Shown: positions 102 to 8,079 of the stretch, in pieces | Position numbering within the stretch: position 1 is the stretch's first letter | Layout of the letters: every line of letters starts with the position of its first letter | DNA from: Microcystis aeruginosa NIES-4325 | Lineage (GTDB): Bacteria; Cyanobacteriota; Cyanobacteriia; Cyanobacteriales; Microcystaceae | Length of the DNA stretch: 39,757 bases | Assembly: GCF_008974145.1 (NCBI RefSeq) | Contig: NZ_BJKP01000033.1 | Span: 1 to 39,757, forward strand | Direction: 5' to 3' | Notes under the pieces: generated by a model | Seen by the model: only the letters and a program-made list of their open reading frames with translations | What the model was told of the DNA's origin: nothing | Databases searched by the model: none | Position numbers and translations under genes: made by a program

Positions 102-890
102 TTGTTCTTCAGCTTTGACTTGCTCCCAGAAATATTGGCTCAATATAATCCTGAGATTATTGTCGGCAGCCCTCCTTGTCAAGACTTTTCCAGTGCCGGT
201 AAGAGAAACGAGGGTTTAGGACGAGCGAATCTAACGCTCACATTTGCTGAAATTGTCACTAGAGTAAGTCCCCAATGGTTCGTTATGGAAAATGTGGATA
301 GAATTGAGAAAAGTAAAATACTCACTCAGGCAAAACAAATTTTTAAAAGTCATGGTTATGGTTTAACTGGAAAAGTTATTAATTCTTGTTACTGCGGAGT
401 TCCTCAAACTAGAAAAAGATATTTTCTGATCGGTAAAATGAACGAAGAAGATGATTTTTTAATCGATGAAATCAATGACAATTTATCAAGTCAACCTCTG
501 ACTGTATTTGACTATATGGGCAAAGAATTAGATATAGAATACTATTATAGACATCCTAGAAGCTATCAAAGAAGGGCGATATTCAGTATTTATGAACCTA
601 GCCCTACTATTCGAGGAGTAAATCGACCAGTTCCCAAAACCTATCGACAACATCCTGGTGATGCTTGTTATCTTCATGAAAAATTAAGACCGTTAACAAC
701 GAGCGAGCGAAGCTATATCCAAACTTTTCCTAAAGACTTTATTTTTGCGGGAACAAAATCTAATCTAGAACAAATGATTGGTAATGCAGTTCCTGTTAAT
801 TTGGCCAGATATGTAGGCCAATGTATTCTTAACTATGAATTGAAAAAGGGGAAAAAGATAACCTATCGACAACTACAGCTATTTTCTTGA
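102..890 (+). pseudogene. C5-cytosine DNA methyltransferase, N-terminally truncated
   Basis: This is the distal part of an m5C DNA methyltransferase, which transfers a methyl group from S-adenosylmethionine to cytosine. Visible motifs are the catalytic PPCQ loop (motif IV, residues 24-27 of the frame), ENV (motif VI), QTRKRYFLIG (motif VIII) and GNAVPVNLA (motif X). A target-recognition stretch containing EPSPTIRGVNRPVP lies between VIII and X. The catalytic Cys normally sits about 75-80 residues in, after the SAM-binding FxGxG motif I; here it is near residue 26 and motif I is missing. The frame closes upstream at a TGA (78-80), so no longer start exists. The TTG at 102 is only the first possible start codon, not a convincing one. 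Probably a remnant left by insertion of the element to its left, and inactive. No cognate endonuclease is seen. Confidence 0.8.
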
Positions 891-930
891 TTTACTGGCA
901 AAAACAAATCTCCAAAAAACTCTAATTCTT

Positions 931-1137
931 ATGAAAGCATCCCTTAGAAAACACCGATTTTTCTGGTATATTTTCTTAAATTTCTGTCTAACAATTCTTT
1001 TCTCCTCCATCGTGCAAGCTTCTACGGGAAGCACTATCGATAGGTGGCAGGCCTTCGCGTTAACCCTTTTAGGATTGGTCGCCTTTGCTTTATTTATCTA
1101 TCTGTTCCTTGTCATCTTTGTACCGGAGAGGTTTTAA
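931..1137 (+). CDS. KdpF-like small membrane subunit of the potassium-transporting ATPase
   Basis: A 68-residue protein with two hydrophobic segments (about residues 11-30 and 42-64) that ends in VIFVPERF. That tail is typical of KdpF and of the cyanobacterial KdpG-like small subunits, which stabilise the KdpABC complex in the plasma membrane. The N-terminal 35 residues are longer than classical KdpF (about 29 residues) and resemble the cyanobacterial form. Its stop lies 2 nt before the kdpC start, so the two are one transcription unit. In complete operons kdpA and kdpB come first; here the preceding gene is a broken methyltransferase. Whether it is KdpF or KdpG in the cyanobacterial naming cannot be decided from sequence alone. 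Confidence 0.7.
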   Translation: MKASLRKHRFFWYIFLNFCLTILFSSIVQASTGSTIDRWQAFALTLLGLVAFALFIYLFLVIFVPERF

Positions 1138-1139
1138 TT

Positions 1140-1784
1140 ATGAGTTTTGCACGCGAGGCCGGTAGAGCCATCCGTTCTACCCTAGTTCTCTGGGTGATTA
1201 CTGCCCTGATCTATCCTTTCTCGATGATCGCCATCGGTCAAATTTTTTTTCCCTGGCAAGCAAACGGGAGTTTGATCACCAATAATCAAGGTCAAGTGGT
1301 GGGTTCGACTCTAATTGGGCAACCTTTCACCAGCGATCGCTATTTTAATAGTCGTCCGAGTACCACCGCCTACAGTACGGCCGATCCGAAAAACGATCCT
1401 AACAAGATCCTGCAAACCGGAATTTCGGGAGCGAGTAACCTAGCTCCCAGTAACCCTGTATTAATTGATCCCATTAAACGAAAACTGGCTCCCGATCCGG
1501 CGAAAGCTATAGAGGGGGAGATTCCCCGATTAGAGAAAGCGGCAATTAAACCCACAGCGGATCTAGTATATACCTCCGGTTCCAGCCTCGATCCCCATAT
1601 CACCCCAGAGGCCGCCAGAGCGCAGATCGAGCGGGTGGCGCGGGTGCGGGGATTACCGACCAATCAAGTAGAGATACTGATTAGCAAAAACACAGACGAT
1701 CGCTTTCTCGGCATCTTTGGCGAACCGGGGGTTAACGTGCTGAAACTGAATCTGGCTCTAGACGCGATCGCAAATACCCGATAG
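1140..1784 (+). CDS. kdpC: Potassium-transporting ATPase subunit C
   Basis: A 214-residue KdpC, the single-span subunit that assembles with KdpA and KdpB in the high-affinity K+-pumping P-type ATPase. The ATG at 1140 is chosen because it follows the kdpF-like stop by 2 nt and gives the usual KdpC N-terminus. One membrane helix is near residues 13-35. The family signature follows: GSTLIGQPFTSDRYFNSRPS, then SGASNLAPSNP, DLVYTSGSSLDPHITPEAA and a C-terminal FGEPGVNVLKLNLALD. No part looks damaged. Neither kdpA nor kdpB is in the window, and the upstream side is disrupted, so function depends on whether those genes exist elsewhere. The next gene is convergent. Confidence 0.93.
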   Translation: MSFAREAGRAIRSTLVLWVITALIYPFSMIAIGQIFFPWQANGSLITNNQGQVVGSTLIGQPFTSDRYFNSRPSTTAYSTADPKNDPNKILQTGISGASNLAPSNPVLIDPIKRKLAPDPAKAIEGEIPRLEKAAIKPTADLVYTSGSSLDPHITPEAARAQIERVARVRGLPTNQVEILISKNTDDRFLGIFGEPGVNVLKLNLALDAIANTR

Positions 1785-1947
1785 GCCTGTGAAATTCGAG
1801 GAGTCGAAATCCTGTTTAAAAGGTATAGGAGAGCGGGGATCGCCAGGGTTGGGAGTGGGGAGAATAAATCAAAATAATCTCCTGAATACTGACTCGAAGA
1901 ATACTTGACGACCGATCATTTTATCCAGAACTGAGTTAACCTACTAT

Positions 1948-3159
1948 TCACTGCTGAGAAGATTCTAAGAGTGATAACAGGTTCTGACTATGTTCGATCT
2001 CGTAGGTGACAGATCTTTTATTATTTTTCTTAACTACTTTTCCGTCCTTGACAGCCATTTCTAACCAATTCTGTAATTGGGATTTATTGACACCAAGATC
2101 GGCAACCAAAGATTTTAGATTTTGAGGTGTATTTAAATGTTCTAGGATAATCGGCAGCACAGCTTCATAAATACTGGTTTTCTCGTTTGGCACTGCCATA
2201 ACTGGCTCATTTTTGTTTAAAATAGCTCTCGTTTCTGTAAGCAGTTTATCTAAAGAATCCCTAAAAGGAAATACAGGAAAAGGTTTGGCTCCCCGTTTAA
2301 TTAACTGCTGATTACCATCGGGAATATTACCTTGTAAACGCACAAATACGGGAATATCTTTGATTTTTTCCAAAGCTTCGGTCGCTCCGTGCCAAGTACC
2401 TCCTTGATTCGCTGTGGCACTAACTACTAAAGCATGATCGGCTAAAGCATAGATATATTTATTTCTACCCATAGCATTGCCAACACTAAATCCCGCTTCG
2501 GGATCGTGGGTAGAAATTAAAGTCAGTTTTCTCTGTTGAATTAGTGGACGATAATCGCCCCTAACCGCCGTTTTTACCAAACTATCGGCTAAAACGCCTA
2601 GTACTGTTCCTCCGGCTTCTAGACTTGCTAACATGGCCGTACGATCTACTCCCTGCGCCCCTCCAGAAATCACCTGTAGACCATTTTTAGCGCACTCTTG
2701 GGCTACCTGTCGGGTGTAGTTCAATCCTTCTGCGTCCACATCTCTAGAACCAATTATCGCTAATCCTGCCAAAGAAAGCAATAAGCGATCGCCAATGCCA
2801 TAGATAATGGGAGGGGCAAGATGTTTAAGTTTCTGTTTGAGACGTTGGGGATAAATATCCTCTCCCCGTCCGATAATCCATAGTCCTTGGTTTAGCCATT
2901 TTTCTAGGGTTAATCCTAGCAAAAAACCCCGATTGAGTAGGGAAAAAAGACGCCCAGAATCCAGTTTAGCGATCGTGATATCTGGTAATTTTTCCTGTAA
3001 ACTGCGATCAAGCAGGTCTGCGGGAGTTAATTGCTGTTGCCGTAGCCAACTAGCCAGACTATTATACTCGCTCAAGGTCAAGGGGGAGGGTTCCGTAGGG
3101 CGATTTTGTCCAAAATTGGCACAAAGTAAGAGAATTGCTTGAGTATCGGTGGCTAACAT
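1948..3159 (-). CDS. DprA-like Rossmann-fold DNA-processing protein (partner of RecQ-PRTase)
   Basis: A 403-residue member of the DprA/Smf superfamily. The Rossmann core spans about residues 95-310, with IIGSRD (135-140), VISGGAQGVD (163-172) and a later VVSATANQGGTWHGATEAL segment, the positions where DprA binds DNA or nucleotide. A C-terminal stretch (about 325-395) looks like a winged helix. Classical DprA loads RecA on incoming single-stranded DNA during transformation. This copy is diverged (GGAQGVD rather than the usual GxAxGID) and is not in the normal dprA context. Its ATG abuts the stop of the upstream helicase gene (TAG then ATG, zero spacing), implying translational coupling and a joint function. 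It could be an accessory, possibly defensive, DprA or the genome's only DprA; finding a second copy elsewhere would decide. Confidence 0.85.
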   Translation of the reverse strand: MLATDTQAILLLCANFGQNRPTEPSPLTLSEYNSLASWLRQQQLTPADLLDRSLQEKLPDITIAKLDSGRLFSLLNRGFLLGLTLEKWLNQGLWIIGRGEDIYPQRLKQKLKHLAPPIIYGIGDRLLLSLAGLAIIGSRDVDAEGLNYTRQVAQECAKNGLQVISGGAQGVDRTAMLASLEAGGTVLGVLADSLVKTAVRGDYRPLIQQRKLTLISTHDPEAGFSVGNAMGRNKYIYALADHALVVSATANQGGTWHGATEALEKIKDIPVFVRLQGNIPDGNQQLIKRGAKPFPVFPFRDSLDKLLTETRAILNKNEPVMAVPNEKTSIYEAVLPIILEHLNTPQNLKSLVADLGVNKSQLQNWLEMAVKDGKVVKKNNKRSVTYEIEHSQNLLSLLESSQQ

Positions 3160-5235
3160 CTAAGAATCTCCCCACGAATTCATGGCTAAAGCTAAAGGAA
3201 AAACGGGACCGCTTGCTGCTTGCCGTAATAAGGCAGCGATCACGGTAAATGTCCAACGAGAATCGACCACATCATCGATTAATAGTACCGCACCAGATTG
3301 AACCTGATTCCAGTTGATCTTAAAGACATTATCTAAATTATGGGCTTGTTGGTAGCTATTCTGCATCTCTTTTTGATGAGAATTTTGACGAATTTTGTTG
3401 ACCACTGGATAGAAAGGTAAACCTAAACGATTGGCTAATTTCTCAGCAAAATCCGCTACTAAAAGGGGACGATTTAAGGAAGGAACACAAGTTACCCAAG
3501 TAGGGGAGGGATTCGGTTGCCAACGTTGAATCATGGCAATACAGCCATCAATTAAGTGGCTATCAAAGTCATTATCTTCGTATTTTCCCTTTTTCACTAA
3601 GTAACCCCAGCCGCTATTTCCCCATAATCCTAAAGCTCTTCCTTCCTCCGCTTGTAGATGAGGTTTAATATTACCTGAAAATCCCGATAAAGCTTGAGGA
3701 AAAGGCCATTTTTTGCGAGGTTCAATGAGATAATCACTTGTCATCAAGAACTTTTTAGCTAGTTGCAATTTTTCTTGGCTATAAGTCGGAGATAATAAGG
3801 TTCTGCCCAGACAAACAGCACATTTACCACAAGCATTCGGGAAAGGATCATCTAAAGCTTTGGCCAGAAATTCCATCAAACAGCTTTGACTGTTCATGTA
3901 TTCTTGCATTTGAGCTTGTTCTTGACGACGAATAGTTTTTAAATGGGCGATTTTTTCGGGATTAGGTTGATAATTAATGACGGTAGTGTACCATTTTGAG
4001 CCTTGTTTGGTTACTGGTGCGGGAGACTCTAGAGATAATAGTTTGAGAACCTTGTCAATTTTTCCTCTAGATAAGTTTATTTGCCTCTCAATCTCTAGGA
4101 CTGATAAGCCATTTTCAGCCTGATTAAGAGCAGTTAAAACCCTTTGGGCGTGAATTTCAGTAGTAAAGGCTGTTTCGATAAAATAGTCGGCGATTTCATC
4201 ATCTTCTTGTCCACATAGAAGAATACCATAGGCTTGATCAACCCCTCTCCCCGCACGACCTACTTGTTGATAATAATGTACGACAGAAGCAGGTCTTTGA
4301 TAGTGAATTACGAAGACCAAATCTGGTTTATCGAAACCCATTCCTAAAGCAGTAGTAGCGACTAAAACTTTAATTTGATTATTCAGTAATTGCTCTTCTA
4401 ATTTCTCACGTTCCTCACTTTCACTATGATAGGCTTTAGCAGTAATATTCTGACTATTTAACCATCGTGCTACGGTTTCCGCATCTTTGACGGTTAAAGT
4501 ATAGACAATACCACTTCCGGGCAACTGGGGTAAGATACTGGCTAACCAAGCTAAACGAACTGCTGGACTAGCAAAAGAAATATTTTGGAGTCCGAGACTT
4601 TCTCTAGTCAATTTTCCCCTTGATATTTGTAAGGTGCTACCTAACTGACTTTTAATATCTTCAACTACGCGGTTATTAGCAGTAGCCGTAGTGGCAAGAA
4701 CGCAAATATTAGGCGGTAAAACTTGTAAAATGCGAATAATTCGGCGATAGTCAGGGCGAAAATCGTGACCCCAATCAGAAATACAATGAGCTTCATCAAT
4801 CACCAATAGACCCACTCTAGACGCAATTGGTAAAAGAACCTTTTCTCGAAAGTTTTCGTTTCCTAATCTTTCTGGGGAAATCAACAATAAATCCACTTGT
4901 TCTGTTAATAATTCGGTCTTGATCCTTTCCCAATCTTCTGTATTACTAGAATTAATAGTTTCTGCTCTAACATTAATTCTTCTGGCGGCGGCTATTTGAT
5001 TTCGCATCAAGGCAATTAGAGGCGAGATTAGTAAAGTAATTCCCTTTCTTCGATCCCTCAGTAATCGAGTCGCTACAAAATAGACAAAACTCTTACCCCA
5101 ACCCGTACGTTGAACTACTAAGAGACGAGAGCGACCACCTACTATAGATTCTATCGCTTCCCATTGACCATCGCGAAAGTTAGCATGAGGATTATTGAGA
5201 GCAGTGCGTAGTAAAGATAAGGCTTGGGATTGCAT
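3160..5235 (-). CDS. RecQ-family DNA helicase fused to a C-terminal phosphoribosyltransferase-like domain
   Basis: A 691-residue protein. Residues 20-350 are a superfamily 2 RecQ helicase: Walker A QRTGWGKS (42-49, unusual Trp), DEAH box (147-150) followed by the RecQ-typical CISDWGHDFRPDY, TATAN, and motif VI QQVGRAGRG. A RecQ zinc site has Cys 452, 469, 472 and 475. Instead of a standard HRDC domain, the last 130 residues resemble a type I phosphoribosyltransferase of ComF kind: VPSLNRPLLVADFAEKLA, RQNSHQKEMQNSY, and the PRPP-loop-like VLLIDDVVDSRWT (650-662). Unwinding of DNA in the 3'-5' direction is the family expectation. The downstream DprA-like gene begins immediately after its stop. 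I know RecQ-PRTase and DprA associations only from comparative genomics of putative conflict systems; the role of the PRTase domain is not established. Confidence 0.9.
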   Translation of the reverse strand: MQSQALSLLRTALNNPHANFRDGQWEAIESIVGGRSRLLVVQRTGWGKSFVYFVATRLLRDRRKGITLLISPLIALMRNQIAAARRINVRAETINSSNTEDWERIKTELLTEQVDLLLISPERLGNENFREKVLLPIASRVGLLVIDEAHCISDWGHDFRPDYRRIIRILQVLPPNICVLATTATANNRVVEDIKSQLGSTLQISRGKLTRESLGLQNISFASPAVRLAWLASILPQLPGSGIVYTLTVKDAETVARWLNSQNITAKAYHSESEEREKLEEQLLNNQIKVLVATTALGMGFDKPDLVFVIHYQRPASVVHYYQQVGRAGRGVDQAYGILLCGQEDDEIADYFIETAFTTEIHAQRVLTALNQAENGLSVLEIERQINLSRGKIDKVLKLLSLESPAPVTKQGSKWYTTVINYQPNPEKIAHLKTIRRQEQAQMQEYMNSQSCLMEFLAKALDDPFPNACGKCAVCLGRTLLSPTYSQEKLQLAKKFLMTSDYLIEPRKKWPFPQALSGFSGNIKPHLQAEEGRALGLWGNSGWGYLVKKGKYEDNDFDSHLIDGCIAMIQRWQPNPSPTWVTCVPSLNRPLLVADFAEKLANRLGLPFYPVVNKIRQNSHQKEMQNSYQQAHNLDNVFKINWNQVQSGAVLLIDDVVDSRWTFTVIAALLRQAASGPVFPLALAMNSWGDS

Positions 5236-5338
5236 GACAATTACAAACTAGCTTAACGTACTAAATTTCCCCGAATGCTCGGTAAAATCTCTAACAATTA
5301 AAATTAATCATCTGATACTACCAAAATTATCCTAACTT

Positions 5339-7972
5339 CTAACCCTGGTTATCGGTAAGGGGTCGATGTTTCTCGACCAAATCGATCGCTTGGGTGACAC
5401 TTTCGGGGAAAATTACCACCAAACCACCCTCGGAAACCGTACTTAAAGCCTTCTCTAAAGCTTCCGTTTCATCGAGAATAACTTCTGGACGCAAACTGGC
5501 ATTTTCTTGGCTAATTCCCCTGAGAATTAAATCGGCCACTTCCCCCCGGCGGCGACCGCGAGTATCGTTATCTTCCTTAACAATAATTCTATCGAACATA
5601 AGCGCCGATAATGTCCCTAATAAAATTAAATCATCATCGCGTCGATCGCCCGGCCCCCCAACCACGCCGACTTTTTCCCCAGGCCAATTGCCGACAAAAC
5701 CGCCGACGGCTTCGTATCCGGCGGGATTATGGGCATAATCGATTAAAGCGTGATGGTGTCCCAAGTCAAACAGGTTCATCCTACCGGGGGTCTGGGCTAC
5801 GGAAGGTTTAAAAGTCCGCACCCCTTGGCGAATTAACTCGATATCGATACCCTGCACAAAAGTGGCTAAACAGGCGGCCAGGGCGTTAGCAATCATAAAA
5901 GGAGCCATTCCCTGCATAGTCACGGGAATATTAACCGCTTCCTCGATTCTCAGCGTCCATTCTCCCTCTAGAATCGACAGATAGCCATTCTCATAGATGG
6001 CGGCCATGCCACCGCGACGGATATGGTCGTGAATAATCGGGTTATCGGGACTCATGGAAAAATAAGCGACTCTTCCCTTGACTTTTTCGGCCATACTAGC
6101 GGTCAAGGGGTCATCGGCATTTAAAACCGCGTGACCCTCGGCGCTAACCACCTCGGCCACAACGCTTTTTACTTTCGCCATTTGTTCGATGGTGTCGATA
6201 TCACCGATACCCAAATGGTCGGCGGCCACATTTAACACTACCCCCACATCGCACTGATTAAAGGCTAAACCCGAACGCAGGATACCACCCCGGGCCGTTT
6301 CCAAGACAGCAATCTCCACTGTGGGATCCTTCAAAATCATACTGGCACTGTAGGGACCGGTGTTATCGCCCTTTTCTACCAGATAATCATCGATATATAC
6401 GCCGTCCGTCGTGGTAAATCCGACTACTTTCCCCGTTTGTCGGCAAATATGAGAAATTAATCGGCTAGTGGTGGTTTTGCCGTTAGTTCCCGTAATTGCC
6501 AGAATCGGCACGCGGCTGGGAGTACCGGGGGGGAATAACATATCGATAACTGGGGCGGCGATATTGCGGGGTAAACCGCGACTAGGGGCGACGTGCATCC
6601 GAAAACCGGGGGCGGCGTTGACTTCTACTATTACCCCGTCCACTTCTCGCAGGGGTTTGCGGATATCCTCTGTTACCACATCGATACCAGCAATATCCAA
6701 ACCGATTAATTTTGCCACTCTTTGGGCGATCCAGACGTTTTCGGGGTGAATTTCGTCGGTACGATCCACAGCGATGCCCCCGGTGCTTAAATTAGCCGTG
6801 GCCCGCAGATAGGCGATCGCCCCTTGGGGTAAAATGCTGGTTAATTCATATCCCTGTTTTCCTAGCACATTAAGGGCGGTTTTGTCAATAGTTATTTTAG
6901 TTAAAACGTTGGCATGACCATCACCCCGGTTGGGATCCCGATTAGTAATGTCGATTAATTCTTCTATAGTTGAGCGCCCATCACCGACGACGTGAGCGGG
7001 AATCCGTTCGGCCACGGCGGCGACTTTGCCATTTATGACTAAAATTCGGTGATCACTGCCTCTATAGTACCTTTCTACGATCACGCTGCGGGTTTTCGAG
7101 GCGGCGCTGGCTAGATCATAGGCTTCCTCTGCTTCCTGCTGATTTTTAACATCGATGCTGATGCCACGGCCGTGGTTGCCATCGAGGGGTTTAATGACGA
7201 TGGGAAATCCGCCCACTTCCTCGATTGCCGCTGACAACTCATCCAAGTATTGAATCACTGTACCCCGGGGGACGGGAATGCCGGCATCCTTGAGGATAGT
7301 TTTCGTGCCTTCCTTGTCACAGGCCAACTCAACGGCTAAAATCCCCGAAAAACTGCTTAACGTGGCTTGAATGCGCTTTTGGTGAACGCCATAGCCCAAT
7401 TGCACCATCGAACGAGCGCTCAGGAGTAACCAGGGAATATTTCTAGCTTGTGCTTCTTTAACGATGGTTTCGGTACTCGGACCGAGGGAGGCATTATTGC
7501 ATAAATCGCGTAAATCGGCTAAATCCTGGGCTAATTCTTCCTTAGAATAGGTTCCCGTATCGACAATCGATTGACACAAACGCACGGCAGCCCGACCCGC
7601 ATAACGTCCCGCTTGCTCGTCAACGTACTCAAACACCACGTTATAGACTCCGGGGGTGGAGGTGCTTCTAGTGCGACCAAAACCGACGGGAGTTCCTGCC
7701 AATTCCTGCAATTCTAGGGCGATATGTTCGATGATATGGCCCATATAAGTGCCGGTGCGGACTCGTTCAAAGAAACCGCCGCGATAACCGGGGGAGCAGT
7801 AATGTTCGACTAAACTGGGGAGAACGTCGATTAATCCCTCGTAAAAGCCGGGGATTTCATTCGATGGCTTCTCTGCGAGATCTTCGAGATCCAGACGCAT
7901 AACAATGAGCTTGTCGCGACGAATACTCCAGTAGTTGGGACCGCGCAGGGTTTGGGTTCTGAGAATTTTCAT
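5339..7972 (-). CDS. cphA: Cyanophycin synthetase
   Basis: An 877-residue CphA, which polymerises aspartate and arginine into the nitrogen reserve cyanophycin using ATP. The ATG at 7972 is preferred over one 33 nt upstream because MKILRTQTLRGPNYWSIRR is the conserved family start. Domains in order: N-terminal domain (1-160), ATP-grasp (about 210-480, with VIKPLDGNHGRGISIDV and the metal/ATP-site VEVNAAPGFRMH), and a Mur-ligase-like domain (about 485-870) with P-loop GTNGKTTTSRL, DNTGPYSASMIL, and YAHNP. All key motifs are intact and the length is normal. It follows cphB by 107 nt on the same strand, the usual cphB-cphA order, so synthesis and breakdown enzymes are probably cotranscribed. Confidence 0.97.
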   Translation of the reverse strand: MKILRTQTLRGPNYWSIRRDKLIVMRLDLEDLAEKPSNEIPGFYEGLIDVLPSLVEHYCSPGYRGGFFERVRTGTYMGHIIEHIALELQELAGTPVGFGRTRSTSTPGVYNVVFEYVDEQAGRYAGRAAVRLCQSIVDTGTYSKEELAQDLADLRDLCNNASLGPSTETIVKEAQARNIPWLLLSARSMVQLGYGVHQKRIQATLSSFSGILAVELACDKEGTKTILKDAGIPVPRGTVIQYLDELSAAIEEVGGFPIVIKPLDGNHGRGISIDVKNQQEAEEAYDLASAASKTRSVIVERYYRGSDHRILVINGKVAAVAERIPAHVVGDGRSTIEELIDITNRDPNRGDGHANVLTKITIDKTALNVLGKQGYELTSILPQGAIAYLRATANLSTGGIAVDRTDEIHPENVWIAQRVAKLIGLDIAGIDVVTEDIRKPLREVDGVIVEVNAAPGFRMHVAPSRGLPRNIAAPVIDMLFPPGTPSRVPILAITGTNGKTTTSRLISHICRQTGKVVGFTTTDGVYIDDYLVEKGDNTGPYSASMILKDPTVEIAVLETARGGILRSGLAFNQCDVGVVLNVAADHLGIGDIDTIEQMAKVKSVVAEVVSAEGHAVLNADDPLTASMAEKVKGRVAYFSMSPDNPIIHDHIRRGGMAAIYENGYLSILEGEWTLRIEEAVNIPVTMQGMAPFMIANALAACLATFVQGIDIELIRQGVRTFKPSVAQTPGRMNLFDLGHHHALIDYAHNPAGYEAVGGFVGNWPGEKVGVVGGPGDRRDDDLILLGTLSALMFDRIIVKEDNDTRGRRRGEVADLILRGISQENASLRPEVILDETEALEKALSTVSEGGLVVIFPESVTQAIDLVEKHRPLTDNQG

Positions 7973-8079
7973 GATGTAGCTGGTGTTCGCTGTTGAGAAG
8001 CACAAAGAAGCCGTTCTCTATTGTCTGATTTTCTGAGATCGGTAAACTGTTCATCGTGAACAGTTTTTTAGGAGTTTTT

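Follow-up and report, generated by a model that had tools for sequence, protein, structure and literature searches.

We describe a pair of adjoining genes in a 39,757-nucleotide stretch of the Microcystis aeruginosa NIES-4325 genome (contig NZ_BJKP01000033.1, positions 1 to 39,757), and this whole stretch is referred to as the window. The first gene, psyrT (rqlH), encodes a RecQ-like helicase with a C-terminal ComF-like phosphoribosyltransferase (PRTase) domain, and the second, psyrA (rqlI), encodes a DprA-like protein (Table 1). An initial annotation, made from the nucleotide sequence alone, had described a RecQ helicase carrying a ComF-like PRTase in place of an HRDC tail, followed with zero spacing by a diverged DprA-like gene; both open reading frames (ORFs) and their junction were found exactly as it stated. 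PsyrT matched the Pfam families DEAD, Helicase_C and RecQ_Zn_bind (the last at 25.2 bits, with a cut-off of 25), and no HRDC domain occurred among its Pfam matches at E-values up to 0.1. The description of the tail can be refined in that a RecQ-type zinc region with four cysteines (C452, C469, C472 and C475) precedes the PRTase. PsyrA matched DNA_processg_A at 128 bits (cut-off 29.6) and has the architecture of DprA, with the N-terminal helical domain, Rossmann core and C-terminal winged helix all present. Scans for promoters and terminators gave counts that were not above those of shuffled sequences (8 versus a mean of 8.7, and 1 versus 3.4, respectively), and the surroundings of the 103 bp upstream of psyrT held no inverted repeat of at least 10 bases.

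Table 1. Features of the psyrTA locus in the window, with related features in other genomes
Feature	Position	Strand	Basis or remark
psyrT/rqlH, RecQ-like helicase with C-terminal ComF-like PRTase (putative toxin), 691 aa	3160..5235	(-)	
psyrA/rqlI, DprA-like protein (putative antitoxin), 403 aa	1948..3159	(-)	
Helicase core of PsyrT, residues 20-350	4186..5178	(-)	Range set from Pfam matches and alignment
RecQ-type zinc region of PsyrT, Pfam stretch 431-476	3808..3945	(-)	Pfam, alignment
ComF-like PRTase of PsyrT, residues 540-688	3172..3618	(-)	hhalign, motif conservation
Phosphoribosyl pyrophosphate (PRPP)-loop motif VLLIDDVVDSRWT, residues 650-662 of PsyrT	3250-3288	(-)	
Winged helix at C-terminal end of PsyrA, about residues 332-387	1999..2166	(-)	
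Operon junction, psyrT TAG abutting psyrA ATG	3159..3160	(-)	0 bp
Cyanophycin synthetase (cphA)	5339-8005	same strand	103 bp upstream of psyrT; TIGR02068, 1252 bits
kdpC	1044-1784	opposite strand	Downstream of psyrA
psyrA scars (with last codons of psyrT) in three congeners	L169:6873-7310, L170:4745-5187, L179:4227-4552		
PsyrT clade without the zinc cysteine quartet	L079, L082, L083, L088, L089, L095, L097, L101, L102, L104-L106, L111-L113, L116, L117		

PsyrT matched the PADLOC PsyrT model PDLC03928 at 978.5 bits (E-value 4e-295), covering residues 2-689 of 691 and model positions 5-687 of 689. PsyrA matched the PsyrA model PDLC03927 over nearly its full length at 426 bits (E-value 4e-128), and the next PADLOC model, ShosA, reached 85 bits. 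By profile match, the gene pair belongs to PsyrTA (RqlHI), a toxin-antitoxin that has been described before and is listed as anti-phage, here in a cyanobacterial host; the matches to both PsyrT and PsyrA rule out a wholly new system. Membership in DpdF was also rejected, as DpdF helicase models matched PsyrT at up to 300 bits versus 978, which was taken to reflect a shared helicase. The view of the initial annotation that nothing beyond computational prediction stood behind such associations was mistaken, given that PsyrTA has been studied experimentally since 2013 and RqlHI since 2015. PsyrT reached 302 bits against recQ TIGR01389 (cut-off 640) and has no HRDC tail, so it does not qualify as a canonical RecQ, and PsyrA reached 93 bits against dprA TIGR00732 (cut-off 191), short of the score of a canonical DprA. 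Since these NCBI equivalog models were matched far below their cut-offs, neither gene is the housekeeping version.

Single-sequence comparisons of the PsyrT PRTase gave weak matches, with a hidden Markov model score of 14.5 bits for Pribosyltran and 27.8 bits (E-value 2e-6) for comF TIGR00201, both below cut-off. Profile-profile comparison with hhalign, in which residues 540-688 were set against 25 cyanobacterial ComF-like proteins, gave a probability of 97.2% (E-value 3.6e-11, 134 columns), while three other PsyrT segments and the DprA-like protein, used as controls, gave 0.1-0.2%. The homology of this region to ComF is thus clear at the profile level, and the predicted PRTase fold of the C-terminal region is supported by that homology and not by structure search. 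A profile search of the PRTase against PDB returned weak matches (E-values 0.48-1), 13 of the 14 being PRPP-using or PRPP-making enzymes, and the match list of a structure search with full-length PsyrT was filled by RecQ, thereby sampling the helicase rather than the PRTase.

Residues of both catalytic parts are strongly conserved among 64 PsyrT members. GWGKS, D147, E148, H150 and GRAGR of the helicase core are invariant (64/64), and A149 is retained in 62/64. In the PRTase, S659 and W661 are likewise invariant (64/64), and D658, which lies within DDVVDSRWT, is an aspartate in 63/64; its equivalence to RqlH D663 follows from the DIVD663 notation in PMC4670107 rather than from an alignment of the E. 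coli F11 protein itself. DSRWT contrasts with TTGTT at the same place in the ComF of the same genome. One copy (L010, genome G125) has an N in place of the aspartate mapped to D663 (DDIVNSRWT) and is possibly a detoxified copy. The zinc cysteines are each retained in 47/64 members, and one clade (17/64) representing several phyla lacks the entire quartet (Table 1). Near-identical copies within that clade come from different families and also from two viral-contig records.

Full-length PsyrT (at least 705 bits; the next match reached 408 bits and covered model positions 7-487 only) was found in 14 of 244 cyanobacterial genomes. PsyrA lies directly downstream in the same order in all 14, with gaps of 0-152 bp. 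At a threshold of at least 230 bits, PsyrA was present in 15 of the 244 genomes, the extra one being G105, which has no full-length PsyrT and contains a lone PsyrA-like piece (G105:C2:181814-182509; 332 bits, 242-aa frame). A scan for the PRTase part in a collection with one genome per species (84,980 species) confirmed at least 278 loci, the best 80 of which were kept; six of these end within 500 bp of the match, leaving 74 readable. Among these best-scoring loci PsyrA adjoins PsyrT in 72/74, spanning about 16 phyla, a count that also takes in loci whose frames are broken (L049 and L063, for instance). The gene neighborhoods therefore support joint movement of the two genes across phyla. The two exceptions are Parabeggiatoa PsyrT genes (L055 and L074), which retain the motif and have no adjoining PsyrA. 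Because the loci were selected for likeness to cyanobacterial PRTases, they reveal little about solo RqlH, which is described as common in Gram-positive bacteria (PMC4670107).

The PsyrT tree comprised 61 named loci, two viral contigs and the window; 63 of 69 full-length relatives went into the tree and PsyrT model and 66 of 71 into the PsyrA model, with the window added in each case. Of the 17 phylum labels in the tree, 16 are represented among the readable loci, and the phyla are intermixed, as expected for horizontal transfer. Window PsyrT groups with an Oscillatoriales metagenome-assembled genome and Planktothrix (95/98) in a cyanobacterial clade. Distances between PsyrT proteins correlate with those between their PsyrA partners (r = 0.92 over 56 loci; 500 label shuffles reached at most 0.15). 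Chance adjacency of RecQ and DprA is ruled out by this agreement together with the consistent pairing. Variants of PsyrA were also observed. The proteins of L014 and L015 have 335 aa and no C-terminal winged helix, in agreement with the reported dispensability of the helix-turn-helix of RqlI (PMC4670107), and L042 (Dolichospermum) is alike by frame length. On Sinorhizobium meliloti pSymB (L168:5019-6409), a psyrA-like stretch is split over two frames next to an intact psyrT frame.

Within the genus, represented by 12 genomes including that of the window, PsyrT occurs in the window genome only. Homology to the other 11 ends at window position 5327 or 5328, just beyond the end of cphA, in every case. 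In G249 and G250 the end of kdpC (window 1773) is followed by 15 bp and then by window 2740-3183 at 94-95% identity, a piece with identical edges in both genomes that consists of the 5′ portion of psyrA plus the final psyrT codons. G095 retains window 2851-3175, adjoining cphA, and no such piece was found in the stretches beside cphA of the other eight congeners. These scars indicate that an ancestor held the pair here in the same order and that it was later eroded. The remainder of the site in G249 and G250 is an 883-aa ORF, annotated as an N6_N4_Mtase-Mrr fusion in G250, that is also whole in G237 and whose 3′ end is seen beside cphA in 6 of 11 congeners. Across kdpC from this site, G250 further has a HindV-like restriction endonuclease and a C5 methylase. 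G235 carries DUF488 and dual-OB genes (PADLOC candidate M45) next to cphA. With psyrA scars lying where congeners have restriction-modification genes, the site looks like a defense hotspot. Plasmid copies of the pair lie between type I S and R subunit genes (E. coli), beside pglX (Acinetobacter) and next to parA and parB (Nostoc). Neighbors of the restriction-modification and pglX kind would suit a defense system.

Two other features were observed on the kdpC side of the pair. A C5-cytosine methylase (window 102-890) lacks the N-terminal 50-60 or so residues of a whole congener copy (L170:2677-3615) that neighbors the HindV-like endonuclease; its homology to congeners sets in no earlier than window 128, close to where the contig begins, which indicates a gene that is broken or cut by the assembly. 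Just past kdpC, window 1807-1905 is a dispersed short repeat, and window 900-1947 gave 38-43 matches per genome of the genus, most of the listed short ones falling in 1807-1905.

PsyrT/PsyrA of Pseudomonas syringae is credited to Sberro 2013 (cited in PMC4670107) and the recognition of PsyrTA as a defense system to Millman 2022 (cited in PMC10121019), and PsyrTA is named among the defense systems of bloom cyanobacteria (PMC11265339). The window pair shares with the P. syringae system the near full-length PADLOC matches of both proteins and the toxin gene in first position, and differs in its cyanobacterial host, its 0 bp junction and the placement of its PsyrT in the clade with the Oscillatoriales genome and Planktothrix. 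RqlHI of extraintestinal E. coli has the same composition, with proteins of 698 and 400 aa (PMC4670107), and the aspartate is present at the place mapped to D663. According to that report, RqlH becomes toxic to E. coli when RqlI is absent, toxicity requires the PRTase and its D663, helicase mutants show more SOS induction and filaments, and RqlH and RqlI physically bind. Orthologs of RqlH or RqlI are reported there from 240 genera, and Russell and Mulvey (2015) had already noted the pair in the cyanobacterium Trichodesmium; in strain IMS101 the genes are 2196 bp apart, whereas here they abut (PMC4670107). The solo RecQ-PRTase of M. smegmatis is the identical fusion type (PMC4670107, PMC5512222) but is described as having no RqlI ortholog (PMC4670107). 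In ShosTA, which pairs a DprA-like antitoxin with a PRTase toxin, ShosT is reported to have PRTase and pyrophosphatase activity and to disturb purine metabolism and DNA, ShosA to bind DNA and T7 Gp0.7 to act as trigger (Pu 2025 via PMC12593503), and a DprA-PRTase pair is described as protective against T7 and lambda (PMC9122126). The window pair is distinct from ShosTA in that its toxin has a full RecQ core and its PsyrA scores 426 bits against the PsyrA model versus 85 for ShosA. To our knowledge, ShosT has no RecQ helicase.

The window pair is probably a toxin-antitoxin operon of the PsyrTA (RqlHI) type and a candidate for anti-phage function. The domains, family, gene order, cross-phylum pairing, intact motifs, patchy occurrence and decayed copies were observed here; toxicity without the partner, its dependence on the PRTase aspartate and binding within the pair were shown by others in relatives; the trigger, the substrate and protection by this copy are inferred. 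PsyrT would be a RecQ-type helicase whose ComF-like PRTase is the toxic part and is steered by the helicase, with PsyrA binding PsyrT and holding it harmless. Single-stranded DNA or aberrant ends arising from phage replication or DNA damage might be recognized by the helicase and the DprA fold alike, and such recognition might loosen the hold of PsyrA. The freed PRTase may then spend PRPP or alter nucleotides to the harm of DNA metabolism, and the infected cell would stop making phage, as reported for the related ShosTA.

Several observations weigh against an anti-phage toxin-antitoxin. Overexpressed PsyrTA of E. coli NILS69 is reported to give no detectable protection; the strain was impaired in growth, and improved plating of three phages on it was ascribed to low lawn density (PMC12409345). 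The RqlH PRTase domain alone is described as non-toxic (PMC4670107), and we found no trigger of PsyrTA in the literature. Besides the two Parabeggiatoa genes, solo PsyrT/RqlH occurs on six actinobacterial plasmids (of seven listed) and one archaeal plasmid (of two listed), so that PsyrT need not be a toxin everywhere. Four of the six actinobacterial copies keep the pattern DDxxD[ST]xWT (L164 does not match, and L166 ends before the PRTase), so that in this small sample the catalytic motif does not separate solo from paired PsyrT. The archaeal copy L161 does not match the pattern either. A pattern scan of viral contigs yielded two loci, and among phage records none reached 80% coverage of PsyrT, so phage carriage looks rare. 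Finally, the survey of flanking genes (175 ORFs from 47 loci collected, 148 carried over, and 102 of at least 180 aa from 40 loci scanned) had no control set, and its commonest Pfam families were mostly ordinary, with glutamate dehydrogenase and fatty-acid desaturase at 4/102 each among the first 25 families; 8/102 matched type I methyltransferases (PADLOC) and HsdM (Pfam), two PD-T4-6 and two LmuB.

The initial annotation had proposed a dedicated machine for foreign single-stranded DNA, serving either uptake or defense. Of these roles defense is the likelier, and uptake is not supported. In favor of uptake stands the homology of the PRTase to ComF and of PsyrA to DprA, a parallel also drawn by Russell and Mulvey (PMC4670107) and in PMC5512222. 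A module for natural transformation, with the helicase-PRTase acting as ComFA/ComFC and PsyrA as DprA, would have to operate beside genes that the genome holds elsewhere: the search for a second canonical dprA and comF located a dprA on contig C5 (262 bits, above the TIGR00732 cut-off of 191), so that psyrA is not the sole housekeeping dprA, and a comF-like gene on contig C61 (105 bits, under the TIGR00201 cut-off, as in 12/12 genomes of the genus). Canonical dprA is present in 10/12 genomes of the genus (none was found in G095 and G247) and the comF-like gene in 12/12, versus 1/12 for PsyrT, whose helicase-fused PRTase is thus no stand-alone conserved comF. No competence protein occurred among the six neighboring proteins scanned. 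On the strength of these separate genes and the patchy distribution of PsyrT, uptake was rejected as the main role, and we regard an uptake module as highly improbable. Two more RecQ-type helicases, on contigs C13 and C55, match PsyrT in the helicase part only.

A function in repair of host DNA, with relatives showing toxicity only as a side effect of lacking one half, corresponds to the model of Russell and Mulvey. In their report (PMC4670107), RqlH without RqlI induces SOS and raises mutation rate and DNA-damage sensitivity, helicase mutants reduce viable counts, and a joint DNA function is proposed; the solo RqlH of Gram-positive bacteria would also suit such a function. We nevertheless judge it unlikely, as PsyrT occurs in a single species out of the 12 in the genus and in 14 of the 244 cyanobacterial genomes, three congeners carry scars at a site that has restriction genes in G250, and rqlHI double mutants are reported without detected fitness loss (PMC4670107). 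The toxin-antitoxin behavior of relatives and the plasmid copies, including the one beside parA and parB in Nostoc, would suit a selfish addiction module that brings the host no benefit and persists because loss of psyrA kills the cell. Congeners that retain pieces of psyrA but no PsyrT indicate that the pair can be lost, and locations inside or beside restriction-modification and BREX genes fit defense at least equally, which makes this quite unlikely. A further idea, put forward by Russell and Mulvey (PMC4670107), is DNA modification. PsyrT could be a DNA-modifying enzyme whose helicase acts on single-stranded DNA at phage forks while the PRTase phosphoribosylates DNA bases, and PsyrA, as a repurposed DprA, could block this on host DNA and hand damaged host single-stranded DNA to RecA; we hold this to be quite improbable.

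A striking gene pair is thereby settled as a described toxin-antitoxin system and not a new machine. What is added is modest: the two genes are paired almost strictly over some 16 phyla, the toxic domain is clearly homologous to ComF, and one genus offers an intact copy to compare with scarred relatives at the same chromosomal site. The window copy offers a way into the question that concerns the whole family, which is what the PRTase targets and which factor releases it. If PsyrT did prove to be a DNA-modifying enzyme, it would represent a new DNA modification used in immunity.

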